Origin: a virus | Length of the DNA: 62,216 bases | Reading direction: 5' to 3' (one strand) | IMG/VR virus record: IMGVR_UViG_3300028558_000030 | Coordinates: 1-62,216 of that record | In this document: in pieces, positions 7,040 to 59,473 of the stretch | Layout of the letters: every line of letters starts with the position of its first letter | Numbering within the stretch: the first letter of the stretch is position 1 | Translations under genes and position numbers: made by a program | Notes under the pieces: generated by a model | The model's database searches: none | What the model saw: only the letters and a program-made list of their open reading frames with translations | Told to the model about the DNA's origin: nothing

Positions 7040-8055
7040 TATTCTCGGTGCTCGTGCTCAGCTAGCAGCAACAACCCATCTGCCACCGCGTCCAAAGGTC
7101 GTTCAACCCTGAATACCTTGGAGATAGGAATCGGGAAGCCCCTCCTCCTGATAGTCTCGAATTCCTCATTGAAGACATCCATGAATCCCTTAGCCAGTGA
7201 GGTGCCGCCAGAGACAACCAAGGGTAGCTCATCCAAGTGATCGTTTTGTTCCTGCTTGACCCTCTCTGATATCTTCTCCAAGCAATGACGAACCAGAGTT
7301 CTAACATAGAGGGCTATAGCTTCAATGTCTGGTTTACCACTAGGCGGAGAGGCGAGGTTGAACTCCCCTTTCTCCTTTAGGGTGCACATTCTAGCCGCTG
7401 TCGAGCCAACCGCCTTTGCTGCATGAGCATCAATCCAATCCCCACCACCTCTAGCGATGGAGAAGTTCAAACCCATAACTCCAAAGTTAGCTAAAGCTAC
7501 GTTGCACAACCCTGATCCGAACGATAGGGCTAACCCAGAGAACTCTGTGTCAAAACACTGAGAGTAGATGATGGCCAAGGCCTCGTTCGTAGGTTGAGCG
7601 ATATACCCATAATTGGTGATGATCCTACTGAATACGTCCTTGTGGTACTTTACATCCTGGTCGGGTAAGTCAATCGGATCAGCTGGAACACTATAGAAAC
7701 AGTGCTCACCCTTGCACGATGGTTCACCCAGTACGTTACTAATCAAGTGATTAAGTACGTGTTGAGCTTTTAGCGCCCCCGGAGAAATCAGACCCTTGGA
7801 GAGTGGACGCTTGACCTCTTGCTTGAACAAGTTAGCCATTTGGAATGACTTGTCACCGACCACTACAACTTCGCTTTGCTCTTTGAACTCAACAAAGTTG
7901 ATGTTACTCATCTTCAATGTTTTAACGTTCTCAGCGTCTATCTCGATATAGGCGTCGGTGGCTCTCTTGTGGGATATCTCATCCTCTTTGTACCTAGCGG
8001 CCACAAAGTTCATGGTACCCACATCTAGACCAACACCTGGACTCTTGTTTGCCAT
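7039..8055 (-). CDS. Actin-like ATPase (ParM/MreB/Hsp70 fold)
   Basis: The five expected motifs occur in order: phosphate-1 loop GLDVGTMNF (residues about 9-17), connect-1 NEALAII (157-163), phosphate-2 region LSFGSGLCNVAL (177-188), a GGGDWID segment (203-209), and the adenosine motif VVSGGTSLAKGF (280-291). This is the actin/Hsp70 nucleotide-binding fold, and the size of about 338 residues fits a polymerising bacterial actin. The usual Asp of phosphate-2 is replaced by Ser. ATG at 8055 is chosen because AAGGA lies eight bases upstream; ATGs at 8061 and 8073 are alternatives. It sits between Dps-like and tail genes. Likely roles are filament formation for DNA or capsid positioning, but this is inference. 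Confidence 0.85.
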   Translation of the reverse strand: MANKSPGVGLDVGTMNFVAARYKEDEISHKRATDAYIEIDAENVKTLKMSNINFVEFKEQSEVVVVGDKSFQMANLFKQEVKRPLSKGLISPGALKAQHVLNHLISNVLGEPSCKGEHCFYSVPADPIDLPDQDVKYHKDVFSRIITNYGYIAQPTNEALAIIYSQCFDTEFSGLALSFGSGLCNVALANFGVMGLNFSIARGGGDWIDAHAAKAVGSTAARMCTLKEKGEFNLASPPSGKPDIEAIALYVRTLVRHCLEKISERVKQEQNDHLDELPLVVSGGTSLAKGFMDVFNEEFETIRRRGFPIPISKVFRVERPLDAVADGLLLLAEHEHRE

Positions 8056-8098
8056 TTTCATATTCCTTTTCATCTGTTATGATTTTGATTTGGGTTGA

Positions 8099-8800
8099 TT
8101 AGGCTAGTCTCTGCCTGAGTAGGTAGAGGTGACTCTCGTGCTTGTCTTCGATGCCGGCCATCATATTGTCGACGCCCCGCGATAGCTCACCCTTCTCCTT
8201 CATCACCTTGGCGACCTCAGACATGCACTCCACGAACTGGGTCTCGGCTAGTAGGCTAACTTCAAGGTAGGACTTCGGGTTCTCACTCTCACCGGACACA
8301 ATCCCATCACCACAGTACTTCTTGATGATGTACGCAATGATCCTGGCTTGAAGCCCGGGGTGCATCTTGTCGAGTGGGGCACCAGTACCAACAGCCTTCT
8401 CAGCCACACCATCGATCTCGTCAGACGTCTCTTCATACAGACGCTGGAATAGGAGATGGTCAGCGTAGTAAGTCTCACCATAGGTCAACCAGTGATGGCT
8501 CTGATGGATATCTGCCAATGCCCTCAGAAAGACAAGGACAGTAGGTAGTCCGTAACCAAGACCATTGGCCATCTTGCTTGCAGCTGCCACGAGGGTCCTC
8601 TGCGAAGCCTGCTTGTCCATTCGAACCTTCATCCCAGGGAGATAAGGAGGACCGTGGAAAAACGGATTGTAGGATGACGGATCTTGCCAGATCACTGATG
8701 TTGCATCATCAGGTGGGGTTCCTAAGTTACTAACCCCAGGGTGATCAGGTGCCGGAGAGAATGACGGGTCTTTAGAAGCAGTTTTCCAACGTGGGTCCAT
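8099..8800 (-). CDS. Dps/ferritin-like protein
   Basis: Residues 95-140 reproduce the Dps ferroxidase segment: HHW, then ADHLLF, then DEIDGVAEKAVG. Spacing matches E. coli Dps (H51, H63, D67, D78, E82) as H103, H115, Q119, D130, E134, so four of five metal ligands are kept at exact distances and the third is changed to Gln. The C-terminal helix (GIEDKHESHLYLLRQRL) also fits Dps. Dps proteins form 12-mers that oxidise iron and protect DNA. The 90-residue N-terminal extension is not part of the usual fold. ATG at 8800 overlaps the preceding stop (TGATG) and has GGAGG five bases upstream. The presence of a Dps-like protein in a phage late operon is unusual. Confidence 0.75.
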   Translation of the reverse strand: MDPRWKTASKDPSFSPAPDHPGVSNLGTPPDDATSVIWQDPSSYNPFFHGPPYLPGMKVRMDKQASQRTLVAAASKMANGLGYGLPTVLVFLRALADIHQSHHWLTYGETYYADHLLFQRLYEETSDEIDGVAEKAVGTGAPLDKMHPGLQARIIAYIIKKYCGDGIVSGESENPKSYLEVSLLAETQFVECMSEVAKVMKEKGELSRGVDNMMAGIEDKHESHLYLLRQRLA

Positions 8801-46509: not shown

Positions 46510-48360
46510 TCAGCTATTCTTGGTGAACCCAGCCCCAACAGGGGTCTGGAAGAAGGTTGAAATCAAGATCTCAGGTTGAATGGAACACTGCTTTAGAGCG
46601 TCGAAAGCGCTATCAAAGTTCGGAGCTGCCTCCGTAATCTGGTAGTCTAGGTCCGTTCTAAGAGCCATAAGTTCCACATTTAATCGGGCTTGTTTCTCAA
46701 AGCCTCGGATCTTGTCGTACTGAGTCTTGGTGACCCCGGCTAAGCTTGAAGCGTAGACCCCATCGATCGATCCGTGCGTTGTTAGAAGGGACGCCAGGAT
46801 CTTACGAGGTACTCTTGGGACCCCGGGCAGATTGTCCGATGTGTCACCTGAGAGTGCTCTGAGGTGAACCATCAACCGGGGCGGGACCCCATACTCTGAC
46901 ACAACTCTATCGGGGTCGTAAAGGGTCTCAGGTCGACTTCCTTGCTTTGGTACTAAAAGTAAGTCAGTGTATGTAACCAACTGTAGGAAGTCACGGTCTG
47001 TAGAGATGATTATGTTGTGTTTACCTTTTAGCTTGTTCTTCAGTAAACAAGCGATAATATCGTCTGTTTCCTCGTCTGGATTATGGACTTGTGAGATGCC
47101 AAACATTGGAAGCATAGACTGAAGTCGTGACATCTCATCGTGTGTACCCTGACTATGCTCTGGCCTGCCTGCCTTGTAGTCTGGATACATGTCAACCCTA
47201 CGCTGCTTAGAGCCATCCCATACAACATACATATTAGCTCTCTCAAAACGCTTCTTGAGTGCAGCTAAGCTACGCAAGAACCCAAATACTAGTGCAGTTG
47301 ATCTGCCCTCACTATCGGTTAGCTGATCAGGGATGTTCCTTAGAGCATTGACAACCCTATAAGCTAGATTATGCCCGTCGAACACGATGTTGTTAGCCAT
47401 ATCTGGGTTCCAATCTGGTAGTGACCTCTCAAGTTGGTCACAATCACTGTGAATCTGTGAGTATCTAGCTATGAAGCTGTCGAGTAGGTCTAGTGCAGCT
47501 GAAGAGTTGGCTAGTTGTGAGACCTCTGGCAATTGAATCAGAGGTAAGTAGAAGAAAAACCCTGACCTTGATATGAATGAGTTCATTTGCTGAACTTGAT
47601 GAAACTTTTTCAGCAGAGGCTCGCTATCGGATCCCGTGAACATCTCAGGTGCCACTGGGTCTACTAGTAACTTCCTGGCTCTTCTAAAAGTATCAAGCCA
47701 CGAGGTGATTCTTAGGTACCTGTCATACTTAGCTTGTAAGGGTTTTTCGGAACTAACCAAATACTTATTCGGAGCCTTGGCACGATCAATCCACTGCTTA
47801 ATCCTGAACAACTTAGTTAGGAACGGGGAGTTGTACTGCTGGTCTTCGGTATTAGAGACATACTTCAAAAAGCTCCGAGGTAGTGTGATCAGCGCCTGCT
47901 TCGACCTGAGCTTAACGAATACTTGAACGGAGTTATTCTCAGGGATGTTCTCAATTACCTTGCCAACAATCCCGCTGTAGGCCCCACTCATGACCAAGAC
48001 TTCGTCGCCTACCTCAATCCCTTGTTCAGTCTCAATGTGAAGCTGAAGGCGCATCTGTTCGATGGAGCTATCAGGCACCGCCGATATCCTACGAATCCGA
48101 TGATCATACACTGTCAGGATTGAGGTAATATACTTGGAACCCTCCAACTTGAAGTATACGGGGTCAGGTTGTGTACGTCTAACGAAGATGTAGTTCTCAA
48201 TTAACTTGTAAACTGACCTAGAATGCCCGCGTGTGATGGTTGAGGCTGGTACAAATACATCCTTCAAGCTCTTGATAGATTTTCCAACAGCTTTTCTGAG
48301 GACCTCTGGGTCCTCATCCTCACCTTGAGGGCTTAACTCTAGGACAACCCACTCAGGCAT
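46510..48360 (-). CDS. NusG fused to a FEN-type 5'-3' exonuclease
   Basis: Residues 1-107 match the NusG NGN domain (WVVLELS, VFVPASTITR, KLIENYIFVRR, AVPDSSIEQM); residues 114-168 match the KOW domain (IEVGDEVLVMSGAYSGIVG). A helical linker of about 150 residues follows. Residues 323-616 are a 5'-3' exonuclease like the N-terminus of Pol I or T4 RNase H, with acidic residues at D328 (FDGHN), D382 (VVWDG), E430-D434, D455/D457 (STDRD) and D506/D509 (SGDTSDN). NusG binds RNA polymerase; FEN nucleases remove flaps and RNA primers. A weak internal start at 47400 (MANNIVFDGHN) could yield FEN alone. GAGGGG precedes the ATG, which overlaps dnaX. Confidence 0.88.
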   Translation of the reverse strand: MPEWVVLELSPQGEDEDPEVLRKAVGKSIKSLKDVFVPASTITRGHSRSVYKLIENYIFVRRTQPDPVYFKLEGSKYITSILTVYDHRIRRISAVPDSSIEQMRLQLHIETEQGIEVGDEVLVMSGAYSGIVGKVIENIPENNSVQVFVKLRSKQALITLPRSFLKYVSNTEDQQYNSPFLTKLFRIKQWIDRAKAPNKYLVSSEKPLQAKYDRYLRITSWLDTFRRARKLLVDPVAPEMFTGSDSEPLLKKFHQVQQMNSFISRSGFFFYLPLIQLPEVSQLANSSAALDLLDSFIARYSQIHSDCDQLERSLPDWNPDMANNIVFDGHNLAYRVVNALRNIPDQLTDSEGRSTALVFGFLRSLAALKKRFERANMYVVWDGSKQRRVDMYPDYKAGRPEHSQGTHDEMSRLQSMLPMFGISQVHNPDEETDDIIACLLKNKLKGKHNIIISTDRDFLQLVTYTDLLLVPKQGSRPETLYDPDRVVSEYGVPPRLMVHLRALSGDTSDNLPGVPRVPRKILASLLTTHGSIDGVYASSLAGVTKTQYDKIRGFEKQARLNVELMALRTDLDYQITEAAPNFDSAFDALKQCSIQPEILISTFFQTPVGAGFTKNS

Positions 48361-50298: not shown

Positions 50299-50997
50299 CT
50301 ACTCCCTAATCTGATTCATGATGTAGGACTTGAATGGGTCGTCACCCCAAGCTTCCCAAAGGTTTGCCGGATCCTTTACTGGCTTACCACTTAGGGTGAC
50401 ACCGCGCGGGTAGTCTAGAATCTGAAGGTGACTGAAGTCCGAGCGATACTCATTGTTGAATTCTCTGCAAGCAGATCTTCCAGTTGAGTCTGCATCGTAG
50501 AACATGTACACCTTATGCACAAGCCGAAACAACCACCTCAGTAGTTGTTCAGTAACCTTAGCTGTGATTGTGCTAACCGTGTATGGAAGTACCCTCTGGG
50601 TAGGAAATAAATCGAAAGCACCTTCCACAATGCATATAGATCCAGTAGTCCAGATATGAGGGATAGCCTGACCCAACCCAAAGAGTACCAACTCATCACG
50701 TACCAAGAAGTAGTCTAGATACCCCTTGTTCGACTGATCAACAGATCTGAATTGGAACCCAGTCACCGTCCCGAGAGCGTTGGTCAACGGAAGGACATAG
50801 GAGTCCTTCAGCTTCTCTCCCCGGTGCGCCCACTGACTGAACTCAGGATCGACTCCAGCGGGCAGTACCCCATTCAGATACCCAAGCTTGAACCCCACTA
50901 TCTGCTCTGGAGACACCCCACGCCCATACAAGGCATCCTTGACCCTGTCGTCCAAGTTACCTTGCGCGCACTCAACTAGATCATCAGCCCAATTCAT
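50299..50997 (-). CDS. Minimal DnaG-type (Toprim) primase
   Basis: Residues 1-40 resemble the DnaG core start (YGRGVSPEQIVGFKLGYL). The Toprim domain is clear: CIVEGAFDLF (catalytic Glu), VYMFYDADSTGRSAC (DxD) and KPVKDPANLWEAWG. At 232 residues it lacks both the N-terminal CHC2 zinc domain and the C-terminal helicase-binding domain of DnaG. It probably makes RNA primers, perhaps with a partner that supplies template recognition. It overlaps the upstream gene by 14 bases. Confidence 0.8.
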   Translation of the reverse strand: MNWADDLVECAQGNLDDRVKDALYGRGVSPEQIVGFKLGYLNGVLPAGVDPEFSQWAHRGEKLKDSYVLPLTNALGTVTGFQFRSVDQSNKGYLDYFLVRDELVLFGLGQAIPHIWTTGSICIVEGAFDLFPTQRVLPYTVSTITAKVTEQLLRWLFRLVHKVYMFYDADSTGRSACREFNNEYRSDFSHLQILDYPRGVTLSGKPVKDPANLWEAWGDDPFKSYIMNQIRE

Positions 50998-51565
50998 GAG
51001 ACTCGATTACCGCCAAAGTCTTGTCTACATTGTATAGTTGAAGACCGATGTAGTCTCCCACCCTTGTATAGACACCTAAGGCTGGTGCATCGGCCACAAG
51101 AATTGCACATTTAGCTGGCAGGTCAGTTGACAAGAGTTGAATCCCCTCAACATTGCCGTGTTGCACACCGTTTTCATCGGTGAAACGACTGACCACGCCC
51201 TTAGGTAGAACTAGGTTCTTCGGCTTGAATCGAGATGCCTGCATGGATTCAACAGCCTCCCCGACTGATCCAAAGCGATTTGCCCAACTACTTTGGATAG
51301 ACAGACTCACAACCTGTCGAATTAGGTCTCCCAGGAGCGCTGGCTCCTCCTCCAAGGTGCAAAAGGAGAATCCGAAGCGAGCCATACCCTCTCTGTTCTT
51401 GCGCGTAACCTTGAACTCCCTACGGGCATTAGTCACAAGGATCGGGTCCAGACCATCAGCCACACCCCTCTCAGAGAGGGCTGGTACCGAGAACCCAGCT
51501 CCAGAGTCAGCTCGCGGGCGAAGACGTTCGGCTACGAGTATGTAGGAGAAGATCGAAAAGCTCAT
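50984..51565 (-). CDS. Hypothetical replication-region protein, 193 aa
   Basis: The product begins with a hydrophobic MSFSIFSYILVAE and has a beta-rich end (QHGNVEGIQLLSTDLPAKC, LGVYTRVGDYIGLQLYN). It is coupled to its neighbours at both ends, by ATGA at the start and a 14-base overlap at the end. I do not recognise a family. Its presence between primase and the Cys-rich gene suggests a replication role. Confidence 0.65.
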   Translation of the reverse strand: MSFSIFSYILVAERLRPRADSGAGFSVPALSERGVADGLDPILVTNARREFKVTRKNREGMARFGFSFCTLEEEPALLGDLIRQVVSLSIQSSWANRFGSVGEAVESMQASRFKPKNLVLPKGVVSRFTDENGVQHGNVEGIQLLSTDLPAKCAILVADAPALGVYTRVGDYIGLQLYNVDKTLAVIESHELG

Positions 51566-52104
51566 GAGTCAATCGGGGGCGGTAGCAGCTTCGAGGTATC
51601 GATCTTTGGGATTACCGGTTCCAACCGAACCCTGCAGAACCAGAACCAAACCAACTTCCACCACGGGAACTTGATCTCTTGAACCGCCCCGAGAACCCAT
51701 AACAGTGAGAACAGCTCCGGGAGGTTCTCCTCAACCCAAGAGGTGCTCTTCAAGTCCTGGGACAGTTCAGGAAGGATGTCTGCCTTGCCCCGAGCCGCCT
51801 TGAAGTCCTTGCACTTCTTGGCATCAATGGGCTCCTCGCAGATTGTCCCCTCCCAATTCTCGGGGTCACTGCAACCTAGCATGCAGAAACCAATAGTCTG
51901 GATCACCGGCAACCCGAGCTTGTCAGTAATTCGGTTATACTCAGGGTTGGATTCCCCCTCAAGCTTCTTCCGAGTATCGAGAGGATGCCGGTAGTTGTTG
52001 ACACATCTGGTTGGTAGCCTTTCTGAGGCCATGGCCACCCTACGGTCAAGTTCTGCACAAACCAACTCCCTGACTCTCGTCTCTACCTCAGACTTGGTTT
52101 TCAT
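51562..52104 (-). CDS. Cys-rich hypothetical protein
   Basis: The 180-residue product has cysteines arranged as CVNNYRHPL, GFCMLGCSDPENW, CEEPIDAKKC, in the first 100 residues; the set could bind a metal or an iron-sulfur cluster. The C-terminal part is hydrophobic and Trp-rich (KFPWWKLVWFWFCRV), which might be membrane-associated. The ATG overlaps the Rad50-like C-terminal gene by 17 bases. I have a sense of similar proteins in other phages but no name or function. Confidence 0.65.
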   Translation of the reverse strand: MKTKSEVETRVRELVCAELDRRVAMASERLPTRCVNNYRHPLDTRKKLEGESNPEYNRITDKLGLPVIQTIGFCMLGCSDPENWEGTICEEPIDAKKCKDFKAARGKADILPELSQDLKSTSWVEENLPELFSLLWVLGAVQEIKFPWWKLVWFWFCRVRLEPVIPKIDTSKLLPPPIDS

Positions 52105-52795
52105 GTTTGGAACCCTTAGCGCGCCGTAGTGTCAAGTGCTTCCTACCCCCATCGATTTTGATATCAGCATGGTAAGATGTAGGAGCGTAATCGACATAGG
52201 ATTGATGTTGAGTAACCAAAAATATGTCCAGACCCATAGTCTCAGCTAGGCCCTTGAGGAATAAGCTGGTGTTCTCCACGTAGAGGTCTGACACCGCGGA
52301 GAGAGTCTCATCAAGCAGAAGGAACTTTCGGCGCTTCAATCGAAGGATTGTCAGTATCCTCAGAACTAGGCTTGCGATAGTTGCAGGGCCTCCACCATAG
52401 GACTCCAGCGGACTGCCTCGAGTCCCACCATTGTCTGGGTCACCGTCACGAATGAAGAACTCTGCACTAACCCGATTGTACTTCGTGGATAGCTCGGTCT
52501 CGAACCGAAGATCCTGGTCGTAGAATATAGTCTGAAATCCGTGGGTGATTACCTCGTCAATGGTCTTGACCTGGCCCTTCACCATACGATCCAATAGAAT
52601 CAGGTATAACTCTGAGACCTTTGCAAGGATAGCTAAGCGAGAGGAGAGGGTCTCTAGCTCCCTCTCCTTCTCACCTAGCTCCAAGTTCAACTGGTCTCTC
52701 AGAGTCTTGACCCTCGTCGCCTGAAGCCGGAGGGTATTTACTCGCTGCTTCCTCCCTACTTCGTCAGAGAGGACATGAACCTCGTTATTCGACAC
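52088..52795 (-). CDS. C-terminal half of a Rad50/SbcC-type ATPase
   Basis: This 235-residue protein has a short coiled coil (residues 15-80), an ABC signature region ESYGGGPATIAS (131-142), Walker B FLLLDETLSAVSD (158-170) and an H-loop VTQH (194-197). It has no Walker A. The complementary half, with Walker A and a zinc hook, is a separate gene at 56263-57609, so the two probably form one ATP site together. The start is GTG at 52795, inside the clamp gene. With the SbcD-like nuclease it would process DNA ends for recombination. Confidence 0.8.
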   Translation of the reverse strand: MSNNEVHVLSDEVGRKQRVNTLRLQATRVKTLRDQLNLELGEKERELETLSSRLAILAKVSELYLILLDRMVKGQVKTIDEVITHGFQTIFYDQDLRFETELSTKYNRVSAEFFIRDGDPDNGGTRGSPLESYGGGPATIASLVLRILTILRLKRRKFLLLDETLSAVSDLYVENTSLFLKGLAETMGLDIFLVTQHQSYVDYAPTSYHADIKIDGGRKHLTLRRAKGSKHENQV

Positions 52796-54018
52796 GGAAT
52801 AGAGTCCTCTTGGGATGTAGTGACCTTGCCATCTGCAGAACTCAGGAAGAATTCGTCAATGGTCCTGAACAGATTGAGCGCTTTCGTCCCCGCCTTGGGC
52901 TTCCCGATGTACCCGCGAAAGGTGACATCATAGCCCTTCATATTCTGAATTAGCTCGGTGAGCTGCCTAATACTCACAGAGGCGGAGAAAGAGTCAGCCG
53001 TGGAAGCCGTAGTACCCTCTTCAGTATCGACAACAGGAGTAGCCTCAATCTTGATTGACTTGGACTTCGAGGTGGTGACATTGAACCAAATCTTGCTGGT
53101 CTTCGCGTCGTAGTTGAATACGATGCTGTCATCCTTTTCCTTCAAGGCTCCTTTGGATGACTCCAAAGCATGTAGGAAACGGGCCTTGTTAACCCGAACC
53201 ACCAATGAGTCCATCTTGAGGTTGTGGTGGATGAACTTGTCGTGCAGGTCCCCAATCTTGCTCCAACCAAAGACGTCCCCTTTGGAACTGACTGCAAAGG
53301 TAAGGTTACCATTGATCTTGATGGCAACCACACTACCACTGTCGCACTTACTAAGGAAACTCAAGAATGCTGGTATGTGCGTAGCATGAATAGCCAATCT
53401 CTTACCAACAAAGTGGTCGCTCTTGAAGTAGTAGGCTATGTACCGATCAGTAGCGTACAGGTAGCCGTCCCCTTTCTCAAGCCGAGTCTTGTCGATAACC
53501 TCGACACCTCGGAACGCTTCGGACACACTCTGGTCAATCTTATCGGCCATGAAAACCCGAGCAAGGCTGATTGCCTCCTTCAAGATCGACGGGTTGTACT
53601 CATAGGTCTCAGTAGCAGCCGCTAGGTCATCATCGTACCGGGAGATGCTATCAGGGGCGTAGCTACCGAACTCAGCCTCAGCCCCATCCGGGCTTGTCAT
53701 ATACTTGACCAGGTGGCGACCATCCTCATCTGAAGAGGCTTCGATGATACAAGTCTCTTCCTCCTTGGCTAGTGGACGCAATGAGTTACTCAGATTAACT
53801 GCTGGGAATACAAAAGCCCCGTCACCACTCGAATCAATCAAGTCGAACTTGGCCCTAGCAACACAATTATCTCCACTGGAGTACAAGTAGCACTCCTTGC
53901 CGCTCACAACGAAAAGGTACCCTGCGGCTTCGTTAGTAGTCTGGTGCGGAACTACAGCCGACACTATGTCAAGGGCCTCAATGATATCGGCCAAGTTGAA
54001 ATTGATTTGAATCTTCAT
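52756..54018 (-). CDS. Sliding clamp, DnaN-like
   Basis: The 420-residue protein has the repeated pattern of a beta clamp, with strands such as ECYLYSSGDNCVARAKFD near the N-terminus and a central segment GDGYLYATDRYIAYYF typical of DnaN. It is longer than E. coli DnaN (366) and diverged. The clamp should hold the polymerase on DNA. It is encoded near its loader (48353-49789). AGGAG lies four bases before the ATG. It overlaps the downstream Rad50-like gene by 40 bases. Confidence 0.7.
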   Translation of the reverse strand: MKIQINFNLADIIEALDIVSAVVPHQTTNEAAGYLFVVSGKECYLYSSGDNCVARAKFDLIDSSGDGAFVFPAVNLSNSLRPLAKEEETCIIEASSDEDGRHLVKYMTSPDGAEAEFGSYAPDSISRYDDDLAAATETYEYNPSILKEAISLARVFMADKIDQSVSEAFRGVEVIDKTRLEKGDGYLYATDRYIAYYFKSDHFVGKRLAIHATHIPAFLSFLSKCDSGSVVAIKINGNLTFAVSSKGDVFGWSKIGDLHDKFIHHNLKMDSLVVRVNKARFLHALESSKGALKEKDDSIVFNYDAKTSKIWFNVTTSKSKSIKIEATPVVDTEEGTTASTADSFSASVSIRQLTELIQNMKGYDVTFRGYIGKPKAGTKALNLFRTIDEFFLSSADGKVTTSQEDSIPCRITRFMSSLTK

Positions 54019-54026
54019 TTAGCTCC

Positions 54027-54311
54027 TCATTTCCTGTCATACTCTGCGAAAGTACCTTCTACCTCAGTCAGTTGTCTGTCGTAATCTTCGAGCATATCCT
54101 CAAGATCCTTTTGGGTCTTGTTCCGCTCCTCAACAAGAGTCTTGGGGTTATACCCAGCCGCATCAATCTCTCGTACTAGGGAGGCAAGTTCTTCCTTCTT
54201 CGACTTTAACTCCCCAGATAATTCTGACTTGCGACGTAGTATTCTAGTGTGGCGCTGAAGGATACCGGCCACCTTCTCTTGTAGTTTATCTGGTGTCAAA
54301 AGCTGAGACAT
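54027..54311 (-). CDS. Small coiled-coil protein
   Basis: The product of 94 residues is almost all coiled coil (LRRKSELSGELKSKKEELA, KTQKDLEDMLEDYDRQLTE). ATG at 54311 is preferred to the longer frame because AGGTGG lies just upstream and overlap with the nuclease gene is avoided. It lies between the nuclease and clamp genes, and between the two halves of the split Rad50. It may add to that complex, but this is inference. Confidence 0.65.
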   Translation of the reverse strand: MSQLLTPDKLQEKVAGILQRHTRILRRKSELSGELKSKKEELASLVREIDAAGYNPKTLVEERNKTQKDLEDMLEDYDRQLTEVEGTFAEYDRK

Positions 54312-54333
54312 CAAACCACCTCTCCATGAAGCT

Positions 54334-55299
54334 TCAGTCGTCAATACCGAGGGCAAGTTCTGTTACACCTTCTGGCAGGTTTAGTCTGGGGCGTGGGCGA
54401 GATTTCTGTACTTGTTTCTTACCGTCCTCACACACCGATGCAAATGCACACAAGTTACAACCATAACTGGGTTGTGATGGGAAAAGCTCCTGTCTTAGGT
54501 CATTATATGCTTGAGACCCTTTTCCAGCCTTGTCTAAACGATCAGTTGCAACGTCAATGCGAGTTAGTACAGACAGAACCTCAACCCTCAGTTGATACAA
54601 GTCTTGTTCGGAGAATTCTACCCACTCAATAGCCTTATCGCCCTCGAATCTCCAGAAAATGTAGCCGATACCACCAGGTATACTGCTGAACTTAGCCTTG
54701 TATAGCAGGGCGTACCACTTCAATTGGGTCCCTTCGATCTTCTGTCCTTTGGCTAACCTGTGACCATCGACATAGGTCTCACGGTGCTTGGAGCCCTTGC
54801 CATCAAGAATCACAAGGTCATTGAATGGCTTCACCCGTTGAATGATGAAGTCGGCGCGGCCCCCAATGATGTACTTGCCGAACTTGAAGTCGAGTTTGAA
54901 CTCAGTATCCATGCGAGGACCGACGAAACGGTTCTCTCGGATGGTCTGAACTCCAATAGGGATCGTCGCTTCGAGATCTGCAATGATCTCCTCCTTACTA
55001 TGATAGTTGGCTTTCTCATCAAACCAATCTACGTCTCGCCCCTTCTCCATAGACTCGTTGATGGCTGCATCAAGGTGCACGGGGGCGATCTCCAACAAGC
55101 GCCGCAGAAGGTCCTTGTCCTTCCAAATCTTTTGCTTGTAGAAGGCCTCGAAAACGGTACCAATGGTGGTACCGTACAGTGAATTTACACTGTTTTCCTG
55201 TACCTTGAGCTTGTACTTGACCACATACTTGAACCAATAGGCATACGGACACTTCTCGTATTCCTTGTACCCAGAGTATGAGATGTAGTTGACGCTCAT
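54334..55299 (-). CDS. Cas4/RecB-like PD-(D/E)XK nuclease
   Basis: The 321-residue sequence has the Cas4/AddB-type layout: an N-terminal Cys (EKCPYAYWFKY), acidic GGRADFI, LVILDGKGSK with the DxK-type active site, QLKWYALLY, and a final YGCNLCAFASVC. One N-terminal and three C-terminal cysteines could hold an iron-sulfur cluster. Such enzymes degrade or trim DNA ends. The ATG overlaps the SbcD-like stop (ATGA). There are no cas genes or arrays here, so a recombination or replication role is more likely than CRISPR adaptation. Confidence 0.82.
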   Translation of the reverse strand: MSVNYISYSGYKEYEKCPYAYWFKYVVKYKLKVQENSVNSLYGTTIGTVFEAFYKQKIWKDKDLLRRLLEIAPVHLDAAINESMEKGRDVDWFDEKANYHSKEEIIADLEATIPIGVQTIRENRFVGPRMDTEFKLDFKFGKYIIGGRADFIIQRVKPFNDLVILDGKGSKHRETYVDGHRLAKGQKIEGTQLKWYALLYKAKFSSIPGGIGYIFWRFEGDKAIEWVEFSEQDLYQLRVEVLSVLTRIDVATDRLDKAGKGSQAYNDLRQELFPSQPSYGCNLCAFASVCEDGKKQVQKSRPRPRLNLPEGVTELALGIDD

Positions 55300-56270
55300 C
55301 CTACTTCAGCCATTTCTAGATACTTGAGTGCCTCAGATCGAACGTCATCAGCGAAGTCGAGAGACTTGATGTTGTCCTCGATAGTCTGATCTGGGTCAAC
55401 TTCTCCCTCAGACACCAAACGCTGAACGAACTGGTCAATGTCTTGGCGCTCACGTTCTTGGACCGCCTTCTTCTCCAAGTCGAAGACATCCTCAGCGGGA
55501 GCAACCGCTAGCTTGTAGGTTTCGACTCGCAACCCACTACCATCAAACTCAACGAGTGCAACCTTCGGAGTACGTTCAAGGTTCTCCCTCACCAGTGACC
55601 CGCGAGATAGTGCACCTTGATTGACAAAGTACTTACCACCTACAACCTCAACACCTTGATCCTTATGCCAATGCCCAAACATGAAAACATCAGGGCCATT
55701 ACGACTCACAAGTGATTCATAGGAGAACACGGGTTCGTTCCAGAAATCCTCAACAGAAGCCGGCGGACTCAATGAAGCTAAAGTGTGAACAACTGCTATT
55801 AAGTGAGTATCACCCTTCTTCTTTTGAATACTCATCAACTCATTGAGAGTCAGGTTGGGGTTGTAGGGGACGCCAACCACACGCACTCGAAGATCCCCAT
55901 CCTCAAAAACTCTCTCGTCAAGTTGCTCGAAGACCTTACTAGCATAGAGGGTGCCTAGAGGCTGCCTATCAAGGGTCTCCAGGTTGTTGTAGCGGATATC
56001 GTGGTTTCCTGGCACCATCAGAATAGGACATGGGTAACCAGCATGAATCAAGGCTGTCTTCTGAACCAAGTAATGCGAGTTACGGGTAGGGGCCTTGTTG
56101 TGGAAGTAGTCGCCCCCATCGAGCACTGCATTAACCTCAAAGTTCTTGGCTAGCTCCCCTACCTGAGTTAAGCTATCCCAGATTTCTTCCGTGTAGTCCG
56201 CCTTCCAAGAGGCTGGACTATTGTCGGACAAGTGAGTGTCAGTCCTGAAAAGGAATGATAGTTTAGGCAT
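55296..56270 (-). CDS. SbcD/Mre11/gp47-like nuclease
   Basis: This is a calcineurin-like phosphoesterase with the metal motifs in order: DTHLSDN (11-17), DGGDYFHN (51-58), VPGNHDI (86-92) and FGHWHKDQ near residue 198. The 324-residue size agrees with T4 gp47 and SbcD. It should form the nuclease partner of the split Rad50-like ATPase and resect DNA ends. It overlaps the ATPase N-half gene by eight bases. Confidence 0.9.
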   Translation of the reverse strand: MPKLSFLFRTDTHLSDNSPASWKADYTEEIWDSLTQVGELAKNFEVNAVLDGGDYFHNKAPTRNSHYLVQKTALIHAGYPCPILMVPGNHDIRYNNLETLDRQPLGTLYASKVFEQLDERVFEDGDLRVRVVGVPYNPNLTLNELMSIQKKKGDTHLIAVVHTLASLSPPASVEDFWNEPVFSYESLVSRNGPDVFMFGHWHKDQGVEVVGGKYFVNQGALSRGSLVRENLERTPKVALVEFDGSGLRVETYKLAVAPAEDVFDLEKKAVQERERQDIDQFVQRLVSEGEVDPDQTIEDNIKSLDFADDVRSEALKYLEMAEVG

Positions 56271-57609
56271 GTGAGTGGTCCAGGGTCATTGGTCGCACAC
56301 AGGTTGGACAGACACCGAGCGCGCTGACCTCTTGCTCAAGACCAGCCTCCTCGACTTCAACCGTAGTCAATTCGCTTTCGAGGGTCCCAACCAGCCCCTG
56401 CAGGGACTGAAGCTTGGCGTGGTATTGATTCAGAGTACTTAGCTTGTTCTGCAACTGTTGAATTAGTTCTATATCTGGAACAGGAGCCTTGACCGCCTTA
56501 CTTACGGTCTCGAACTTTGCCTTGAGCGCTCTGAGCTTGCCAATCCAAGAATCCAGGAGTGAGAACTTGGAAGACAATGCATCTAGACCGGAGATCTCTG
56601 GTACTACCAAAGATTCGACCCATGTGAGCCCATCAACCCGAGATTGCCGGCGCGCGTGCTCAGTAGAAAACTTGGTGAGCTGAACCACCTTAGAGTTCAT
56701 GGTGGAGACTGAAGCTATATTCGGAACACGGCCCTCCAGGTCCTCAACCCAACTCAAGCCAGACACAATCGCCTCTCGGCGGTCGTAGTCCTCAGAAAAC
56801 TTGGTGAGCTGGTCAACCTTCTGACCTAGTTGGTCAATAGCGTCGATAGCAGGTACCTGGACAGACTCAACACTCGCCAAGGACCTGATCCGGAGCGCTA
56901 GGTCCTTGAGCTTGGAAAGGAACTCTTTGATGACCCCTAGCTTGACTTCCTTGGCCTCGATGACCTTGTACTGACCCTCTACGTCAACCACCTTCTGAAG
57001 GGCGTTATCCAGCCCCTCATAGGCACACAGACGAATCTTGAGCTTATCAGCATCCGCCTCTCGAATCTTCTTGACCCCCTGCAGGTCCCGACGGTCTTTC
57101 TCGACCAGCTTGGTAGCCTTGCTTACCCGATCCAACCTAGAAACATCGGATATAGTCTCGGCTACTACCCCACCAGATTGGTCCAGAAGGAAAAGAGGGT
57201 AGAACTGGTCAGCAATCTGAATACTCTTGGAGGCATCGCCGACCTTGACCGGTGCAAGACCGTCCTTGAGGAGGAACTCAGGGATACCCTTACCAGGCTT
57301 GTCGTACTTCTCTCCGTTGAAGAAGTATCGATTTACTGCATCCCCTTTCTCCCAAAATAAGTCGAACCCATCCATCACAATGTGTACCGAGGAGGCACAC
57401 TTGCAGGTCTTAACACCTCGAAGAACGCGAGCACAATCAAGCCCGTGCCTGACGAAGTTCACCCCCTCTGCATTGGTGAGAGCGCACTTGAGCGCTCTCA
57501 CCAATGCACTCTTACCAATGTTGCTTCGGCCAACGATGGCAGTGAACCCGTCGAGGGAGATCTTGAGGTCCTCGACAGACTGAAAGCCTTTGACCTCAAT
57601 ATTGATCAT
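56263..57609 (-). CDS. N-terminal half of a Rad50/SbcC-type ATPase with zinc hook
   Basis: The first ~170 residues form the ATPase lobe, with Walker A GRSNIGKSALVRA at about 27-39. A coiled coil spans about 170-430. The chain then reaches CPTC (434-437), the zinc-hook motif, and stops 11 residues later. No ABC signature or Walker B is present; those are in the separate gene at 52088-52795. In all family members I know the two halves are one chain. ATG overlaps recA stop (ATGA). Confidence 0.83.
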   Translation of the reverse strand: MINIEVKGFQSVEDLKISLDGFTAIVGRSNIGKSALVRALKCALTNAEGVNFVRHGLDCARVLRGVKTCKCASSVHIVMDGFDLFWEKGDAVNRYFFNGEKYDKPGKGIPEFLLKDGLAPVKVGDASKSIQIADQFYPLFLLDQSGGVVAETISDVSRLDRVSKATKLVEKDRRDLQGVKKIREADADKLKIRLCAYEGLDNALQKVVDVEGQYKVIEAKEVKLGVIKEFLSKLKDLALRIRSLASVESVQVPAIDAIDQLGQKVDQLTKFSEDYDRREAIVSGLSWVEDLEGRVPNIASVSTMNSKVVQLTKFSTEHARRQSRVDGLTWVESLVVPEISGLDALSSKFSLLDSWIGKLRALKAKFETVSKAVKAPVPDIELIQQLQNKLSTLNQYHAKLQSLQGLVGTLESELTTVEVEEAGLEQEVSALGVCPTCVRPMTLDHSHA

Positions 57610-58829
57610 GACCCCTCGGAAACTACCTCTTCAGGAGTGGTATCAACTGCCTCGTCAAACAGGGTATCGTCATCGAGTTCTTTCCTCATGTCAGATACGA
57701 TGTCATCGTCATCAACCTCGGTAACCGCGGTTGGGGCCTCAGAAAGAAGGCTCTGCATCACACTATCCCGAAGCTTCTCGAAAGCCTTTGGGTTACTCAC
57801 TAGATAACTACGTAGCTTGTCTCGACCCTTGAAGGACTCACCCTCGAAGTCGTAGGCTGACGCTCTTTTGAGTATGATCTTGCGAGGTACCGCCGCCTCA
57901 ACCAAGGACAGGTACTCATCAACTCCAGTACCATACCGAATGAAGATCTCGCAGGCATGTCCTTGCTTCCCATCCATCTTGTTCTTGACGGCCTTGACCT
58001 GAACCACGTTACCGAAGGGGATCTTCTTCTTTTGAAGGGTGATTGGGTCCACCTTTTCGATGAACTCTGACTTGATTCGAGTCAGCTTCAAGCGTAGGCT
58101 TGCATAGAACTTCACGGCTTTACCACCAGCCGTGTTGTCGTCACCAGGACCATAGCTAGTTTTTGATATGTTAGCTCGAACCTGGTTGATGAAGATAACC
58201 ACTGTCGGGCTGCCCTTGAGCCACTGAGTCATCTTCGGAAGGACCGAACTCATCGACCGAGCTAGAACTCCAATGGCAGCCGCGTCATCGAGCTTCTTCT
58301 CCAACTCAGCCTTGGGTACCATCGCGGCTACCGAGTCAATGACAACCAGTCCAACCCCTTGTTTGATGGCGATGTAGAGCATTTTCATGCCCTCTTCCAA
58401 GGTGGTTGGTGCGAACAAGCTCAGGTAGGACTCATCGAAGTTGACTCCAATCGACCGCGCGTATCCGTGGTGGATAGCGTTTTCATAGTCGAAGTACAGA
58501 ACCCCTTGCTTGGCTCGCTGAGCCTGAACTGCAGCAGCTAAAGCAAGGGTAGTCTTACCACTTGACTCAGCTCCGTAGATCTCTGTGATACGTCCTCGGG
58601 GGTACCCAGGACATACCAGCCCTGACCCGTCAAGGATTGGAGTCCCACCAATCAAGCTATCAACCGCGATAGCTCCTGATTGCAAGTGAGGCCAGGAACC
58701 ATTCCGGGTACCAATTGGGTCTTGGTCCGTCGCCTTCTTAATGAAGGCTCGTGTCTGCGCCATCATCTCTCTTCGCTTGGCGTCGACTTCATCCATAGGG
58801 GGTTGAGCATTTTTCTTAGAGGCAGCCAT
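57606..58829 (-). CDS. recA: RecA/UvsX recombinase
   Basis: The ~407-residue protein is close to bacterial RecA: Walker A GAESSGKTT (about 86-94), Walker B VVIDSVAAM, and the DNA-binding loop with FINQVRANI followed by PGDDNTAGGKAVKFYAS. It forms filaments on ssDNA for strand exchange, repair and recombination-dependent replication. ATG at 58829 is chosen since TTGGAG lies five bases upstream; a GTG six bases earlier is possible. The C-terminal tail is acidic, as in RecA. Confidence 0.93.
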   Translation of the reverse strand: MAASKKNAQPPMDEVDAKRREMMAQTRAFIKKATDQDPIGTRNGSWPHLQSGAIAVDSLIGGTPILDGSGLVCPGYPRGRITEIYGAESSGKTTLALAAAVQAQRAKQGVLYFDYENAIHHGYARSIGVNFDESYLSLFAPTTLEEGMKMLYIAIKQGVGLVVIDSVAAMVPKAELEKKLDDAAAIGVLARSMSSVLPKMTQWLKGSPTVVIFINQVRANISKTSYGPGDDNTAGGKAVKFYASLRLKLTRIKSEFIEKVDPITLQKKKIPFGNVVQVKAVKNKMDGKQGHACEIFIRYGTGVDEYLSLVEAAVPRKIILKRASAYDFEGESFKGRDKLRSYLVSNPKAFEKLRDSVMQSLLSEAPTAVTEVDDDDIVSDMRKELDDDTLFDEAVDTTPEEVVSEGS

Positions 58830-58831
58830 AA

Positions 58832-59473
58832 TCACTCCAATTTTGAGAACCTGAAGAACCTATCGTTTTCCCTGAATAGCGTTCCGTACTTGTCGATCTC
58901 GCCCGAGCGAACACCCTTTGAGAAAGTGTGCTCCCCAATAAAGGTGTGTCGCTCGGACGGGATCAGTACATCTTCATCTATCTCACCCTCTAACAGCAGC
59001 CAGAACCGAGCTGCGAATCTCGCCACGTTATAGGCATCAGCTTCGTCGTTGTTCCAACGAGTGATGCCTGTATCCGCTTTGGCCATCGCAACCATGTCAG
59101 ACTTGAACATTTTCCCTTTGCGTATGGAGGGATCCTCCTTGGCAAGGGACTTCACTGTTAGAGGATCGAAGTACACCACATCTCGTCGATGGGTATAAAT
59201 CGCTTCATTTACATATGTGAACAGGGCGTAGAGTCCTTCAGACCAACCTTCACCAAAAGGGGGTGACTCTACTCCAACGATGCTAACCTCAGGGTAATCA
59301 TCAAGTAAGTTGTTAATGCACGATCGCAAACCCATGTATCGAGCTACGAACACCATATCAGCAGGGCTTGAAAAACGGCCCTTATCTATGACGCGCGCCT
59401 TACCTACTGCCCATGGGTCGTGTACACACCAACCCATATCAGAGAATGATGGATCTAGCCCGAGGGAATACAT
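58832..59473 (-). CDS. RuvC-like Holliday junction resolvase
   Basis: The catalytic acids of RuvC are found: D7 (SLGLDPSFSDMGW), E69 (GVESPPFG) and D143/D146 (NNDEADAYNVA), with the same three-residue spacing of the last pair as in E. coli. RuvC enzymes cut four-way junctions, which must be removed before packaging. The 213-residue product starts at ATG 59473, with AGGTG six bases upstream, in preference to GTG 59482. It is encoded beside recA and after a double hairpin. Confidence 0.83.
   Translation of the reverse strand: MYSLGLDPSFSDMGWCVHDPWAVGKARVIDKGRFSSPADMVFVARYMGLRSCINNLLDDYPEVSIVGVESPPFGEGWSEGLYALFTYVNEAIYTHRRDVVYFDPLTVKSLAKEDPSIRKGKMFKSDMVAMAKADTGITRWNNDEADAYNVARFAARFWLLLEGEIDEDVLIPSERHTFIGEHTFSKGVRSGEIDKYGTLFRENDRFFRFSKLE

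Follow-up and report, generated by a model that had tools for sequence, protein, structure and literature searches.

Organization of the locus

The window, a linear IMG/VR fragment of 62,216 nucleotides, contains a block of genes that all lie on the minus strand and are separated by gaps of 8-22 nt or overlap by 4-40 nt, as in one operon. In the order of transcription, the block encodes a RecA-like recombinase (57606..58835), the N-terminal half of a Rad50 ATPase (Rad50-N, 56263..57609), an SbcD/Mre11-like nuclease (55296..56270), a PD-(D/E)XK nuclease of the RecB/Cas4-like type (54334..55299), a coiled-coil protein of 94 amino acids (54027..54311), a beta-like DNA polymerase sliding clamp (52756..54018), and the C-terminal half of Rad50 (Rad50-C, 52088..52795). 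The RecA-like protein was recognized by its sequence and occupies the same first position in at least 95 loci. The SbcD-like nuclease matches PF00149 (E 1.8e-12) and phrog_100 (E 2.9e-9), and its D-x-H and GNHD-type motifs are present in 132 of 132 relatives. The PD-(D/E)XK nuclease matches PF12705 (E 4.1e-20) and phrog_69 (E 4.4e-18), and its cysteine pattern suggests candidate Fe-S ligands, while the clamp was identified by phrog_947 (E 5.7e-7).

Further downstream, the window encodes a 616-amino-acid protein (46510-48360, minus strand) resembling NusG/antiterminators at residues 3-163 (phrog_6386, E 1e-3) and containing a FEN-type 5'-3' exonuclease domain (phrog_107, E 6e-21); from these matches, it looks like an unusual fusion of the two. 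In addition, a 232-amino-acid Toprim/primase core with no obvious zinc-binding domain is encoded at 50299-50997 (minus strand), and a small protein with several cysteines is encoded two genes away at 51562-52104 (minus strand). Judged from sequence, the primase of the window may thus also be split.

The two halves of Rad50

Rad50-N consists of 448 amino acids forming an N-lobe with a Walker A motif (GRSNIGKS) and a Q-loop, followed by a helical arm. It matches AAA_15/AAA_23 in Pfam (PF13476, E 5.7e-7) and phrog_16465 in PHROG (E 1.3e-19), the latter being matched by all 65 aligned N-halves. The protein ends in ...GVCPTCVRPMTLDHSHA, where the stop follows 11 residues after a CPTC hook at residues 434-437 (56263..56310, minus strand, defined by the alignment and the census below), and both C434 and C437 are invariant in 65/65 aligned N-halves. 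AlphaFold2 prediction from the 65-sequence alignment (mean pLDDT 79; lobe blocks 85-97) gave a confident N-lobe at residues 1-128, then broken helices up to residue 431 and finally the hook, with a pTM of 0.42 that makes the layout of the arm unreliable. The top Foldseek match of the N-half in the PDB was Rad50 (1f2u_C, the N chain of 1F2U; probability 1.0), and hhalign aligned it to the first ~100 residues of Escherichia coli SbcC (E 3e-6). Among 144 distinct N-halves, Walker A is found in 139 and the Q-loop in 140.

Rad50-C is a protein of 235 amino acids matching phrog_15167 (E 3.1e-16), as do all 44 aligned C-halves. AlphaFold2 predicted a single helix of 79 residues (12-90) and a confident lobe (pLDDT 90). 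The lobe carries ESYGGGPAT at the signature position, FLLLDETLS as Walker B and VTQHQ at the H-loop position. The C-half matched the C-terminal heads of SMC and Rad50 proteins in the PDB (Foldseek, E 1.6e-8 to 3e-4), and hhalign placed it onto residues 950-1030 of E. coli SbcC (E 9e-4) so that signature, Walker B and H-loop coincide; no signal was obtained by hhalign against T4 gp46. Among viral models, the three best matches were stand-alone proteins of 193-219 amino acids, ranking above full-length Rad50-like ones. Two other short stand-alone proteins resembling the Rad50 C-lobe, Q0E500 from an ascovirus (153 amino acids) and A0A8S5LJS8 (139 amino acids), were seen in BFVD and are possibly further split forms or fragments.

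The motifs of the two halves are complementary. A GG motif together with Walker B is present in 118 of 120 C-halves, whereas the same spacing occurs in only one of the 144 N-halves, and Walker A is missing from all 120 C-halves. Yet, the signature of the C-halves reads xYGG or xFGG instead of the textbook LSGG. The H-loop histidine is present in 115 of 120, but glutamine, followed by histidine, takes its place in the window and in L005, the nearest relative of the window, and motifs other than [TSA]H were also seen in L234, L253 and L271. ATP hydrolysis may therefore differ in the window and these few relatives, and for the window copy, with both signature and H-loop non-canonical, it is putative.

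Two other families of ATPases were considered for comparison. OLD/GajA-type ATPase-nucleases have the ATPase fused to a C-terminal Toprim nuclease, but a Pfam search gave no Toprim match in either half. The SMC proteins of condensin and cohesin have a globular hinge domain at the tip of the arm, for which Rad50-N has no room, as its arm ends with a CxxC 3-22 residues before the stop. The sequence-only reading, which had described a Rad50 split into two genes with the hook at a chain end and an SbcD, a Cas4-like nuclease, a coiled coil and a clamp in between, held up when coordinates, strand, motifs and Pfam/PHROG matches were checked, with the amendment that the signature and H-loop of Rad50-C are not of the textbook kind. 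The arrangement also proved to be widely conserved beyond this phage.

Conservation and gene order

Five alignment scans of IMG/VR, together with loci of named phages and genomes, yielded 144 distinct N-halves whose genes are complete at the 3' end, along with 123 distinct C-halves. A CxxC lies 3-22 residues (median 11) before the C-terminal end in 143 of the 144 N-halves, the sole exception being Microbacterium phage Magritte. This census rejects chance or mis-called open reading frames as the source of the split. A fused version in relatives had been suggested as something to look for, but among the 144 N-halves and 123 C-halves no open frame was matched by the models of both halves, of C-half and coil, or of N-half and coil.

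Both halves were found in 111 non-redundant loci, and the exact order RecA, N-half, SbcD, PD-(D/E)XK nuclease, coil protein (~90 amino acids), clamp and C-half is kept in 95 of them. In four loci, the block order is the same with RecA undetected, and in three the clamp is missing. Five Bacillales loci instead have the order N-half, coil, C-half and SbcD, and in the remaining four further genes went undetected, among them the coil in three. SbcD was detected in 110 of the 111 loci.

An intact second Rad50 in the same genome would have spoken against the split. Searches with phrog_77 and PF13476 covered 16 related genomes or records, among them Tunturi_5, vB_BboS-125, Magritte and Mvi-JY20 as complete genomes, and no full-length SbcC/Rad50 turned up. 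What they did return were the halves themselves and a small number of P-loop proteins, either unrelated or weak. In the window itself there is a single AAA_23 match, its own genome being covered in part by this 62-kb fragment.

Several named phages and genomes display variants of the locus. Bacillus phage vB_BboS-125 (58.5 kb) encodes N-half, coil, C-half and SbcD in one run with nuclease and clamp absent; here, SbcD was unannotated (7424-8404 of locus L105; NC_048735.1 22423-23403, plus strand) and completes the operon, into which an AP2/HNH gene (gp33) is inserted. The same run without nuclease or clamp is found in four Bacillales genomes (Sutcliffiella, two Paenibacillus and Brevibacillus), where the loci are probably prophages. 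Microcystis phage Mvi-JY20 has overlapping genes in the order N-half, SbcD, coil and C-half, the N-half being 332 amino acids long with CSQC near its end. In Tunturiibacter phage Tunturi_5, the coil gene directly follows the N-half and SbcD is close by, while the C-half is encoded ~108 kb away. The huge phage LR745208 keeps the order of the window, with extra genes between N-half and SbcD and an HNH open reading frame inside. In Magritte, the N-half is devoid of any CxxC (L002 8992-10044) and the C-half (L107 284-934) lies at the opposite end of the genome, so that this phage has a variant of the split Rad50 without the hook. Homing-type HNH/AP2 genes were seen inside split-Rad50 operons at about 7287-8018 of L001 and 5584-6156 of L105, and it is possible that such genes act as agents of gene rearrangement. 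Matches in Pseudomonas ZRG1/Dolphis turned out to be single-chain AAA proteins with neither split nor hook and were set aside as not relevant.

The coil protein and the geometry of the arm

An alignment of 40 sequences describes the coil protein as a helical hairpin that carries a conserved glycine and has its turn at G-x-[DN]-P. The coil gene accompanies both halves in three gene orders and is retained where nuclease and clamp are missing, lying directly between N- and C-half in the five Bacillales loci and overlapping the C-half in Mvi-JY20. As a low-complexity helix, the family gives weak HMM matches in distant loci (E 1e-5 to 1e-3 in some). In two of three loci lacking a detected coil (L079 and L084), an unrecognized helical open reading frame of about the coil size occupies the expected gap, and in the third (L080) none was found. 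No homology between the coil protein and the SbcC coil was detectable by hhalign.

The N arm, measured from Q-loop to hook, is about 220-330 residues long (median 264). The stretch ahead of the lobe in the C-half has a median of ~84 residues, and the median length of the coil protein is 91; larger values are probably start mis-calls. The unequal coils noticed in the window, from which an assembly unlike known ones had been deduced, are hence a property of the family. With an arm of ~260 residues against a C-terminal helix of ~80 and a coil of ~90, the same-chain antiparallel coil of the T4 gp46 type is impossible here, and C-half and coil together cannot match the whole N arm residue for residue. 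The N arm would instead fold on itself or pair with a second N chain. A coil serving as a full returning strand matched in length to the N arm was rejected, as the two lengths are uncorrelated (Spearman rho -0.03, p 0.80, 61 loci). Proline breaks in the N arm were likewise discarded as a sign of a folded-back arm, since the proline density of E. coli SbcC is about equal.

A Rad50 probably assembled from separate chains

The complementary motifs and folds suggest that Rad50-N and Rad50-C together make an ABC head. Each ATP-binding head would comprise the Walker A lobe of Rad50-N, with its long arm and chain-end hook, and the Walker B/signature lobe of Rad50-C with its short helix. By analogy with the family, two such heads would sandwich ATP with SbcD beneath, and the hook cysteines of two Rad50-N chains may bind one zinc to form a Cys4 hook at the arm tips. 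The hairpin protein of ~90 residues would be a third, constant subunit on the arm, replacing part of the missing returning coil. As the gene order suggests, with RecA, the Cas4-like nuclease, a RuvC-like resolvase and the clamp adjacent, the complex could work with this nuclease and the clamp in resecting breaks that feed RecA-dependent recombination or recombination-dependent replication. Overall, it is likely that the locus encodes a DNA-end-processing complex of the Mre11-Rad50 type with its Rad50 assembled from separate chains, the coil protein most likely being the third subunit.

That a normal Rad50 gene was merely broken by decay, assembly error or insertion of a mobile gene is scarcely credible. 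Homing-type genes do reside inside some copies, as with gp33 of vB_BboS-125 and the HNH open reading frame of LR745208, yet 143 of 144 distinct sequences, drawn from many contigs, share the break point after the hook, the motifs to either side of it are intact, and the genes in between are functional and overlap. As the arrangement recurs in more than 100 other phages and a few bacterial genomes, the split has the look of a functional design rather than of a damaged gene. It is also highly improbable that the halves are independent proteins, for example RecF- or OLD-like adaptors sharing no head. Their separate genes, far apart in Tunturi_5 and Magritte, and motifs diverging from LSGG would fit such proteins, but neither half holds a complete ABC site, the two co-occur in 111 loci, and both fold and profile link each of them to its counterpart in Rad50/SbcC.

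More weight, albeit still a minor share, can be given to a two-part Rad50, with an ATPase made of N- and C-half only and a coil protein that serves the PD-(D/E)XK nuclease or the clamp as an accessory. The coil gene does sit between these two in the jumbo-phage block, the length of its product shows no relation to that of the N arm, and it lacks detectable homology to the SbcC coil. However, it stays where nuclease and clamp are absent, as in the Bacillales loci and Mvi-JY20, and directly follows the N-half in Tunturi_5. Being the only small gene to accompany the Rad50 halves throughout these settings, it very probably encodes the third piece of the split Rad50 and not an unrelated neighbor. 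For the clamp, by comparison, no match was obtained in either the Bacillales operons or the Mvi-JY20 module, and it is an operon partner outside the ATPase. For the three-piece Rad50, it could tentatively be proposed, on grounds that leave somewhat more room for doubt than for belief, that a full-length returning strand is dispensed with: a variable arm of about 220-330 residues would pair with itself or with a second N arm and be braced by the hairpin, the other pieces staying nearly constant. If true, exchange of subunits could let the three-piece arm open and close again, which is beyond a single-chain Rad50.

Relation to known systems

Rad50 is treated as a single chain in which the two ends meet at the ATP site and the middle makes the hook. 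The split form resembles cellular Rad50/SbcC-Mre11/SbcD and T4 gp46-gp47 in its N-lobe with Walker A and Q-loop, its CxxC, its C-lobe with Walker B and its adjoining nuclease, and a clamp gene is near the split Rad50 just as genes 47, 46 and the clamp gene 45 are close together in T4. It differs in that the C-lobe is a separate protein with a coil gene alongside, and in that the hook is at the chain end, whereas it is mid-chain in T4 gp46 (at 288 of 560) and SbcC (at 506 of 1048). Probably working like Rad50 but lacking the single chain with a mid-chain hook, it is filed as a split variant. A head made from separate N- and C-terminal polypeptides also recalls the catalytic domain of Pyrococcus furiosus Rad50 (1F2T/1F2U), which was reportedly made as two polypeptides that assemble, the split being engineered and most of the coil removed. 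Here, in contrast, the split is natural, and arm and hook are kept.

In PHROGs, families 16465 ("exonuclease"), 15167 ("ATPase") and 18563 (77 amino acids, unknown) are an N-half, a C-half and a coil of this type and probably come from Bacillus phage vB_BboS-125, yet they are kept as separate, unlinked families with no split Rad50 named. Jumbo phages have been described to encode split DNA polymerase III alpha and split RNA polymerase subunits (PMC7824862), thus likewise dividing a single-chain enzyme between two genes, although the enzymes are different. The same survey regards SbcC as nearly universal, and its passages on SbcC/Rad50 make no reference to a split (PMC7824862). No description of a split Rad50 was found in the open-licence papers searched, where absence is no proof.

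A conserved natural split implies that continuity of the chain through the hook is not needed. It offers small, separately expressible pieces for studying the opening of the arm and the function of the hook, and it allows two anonymous phage families, an "exonuclease" and an "ATPase", together with the coil family, to be assigned to a single complex when many large phages are annotated.
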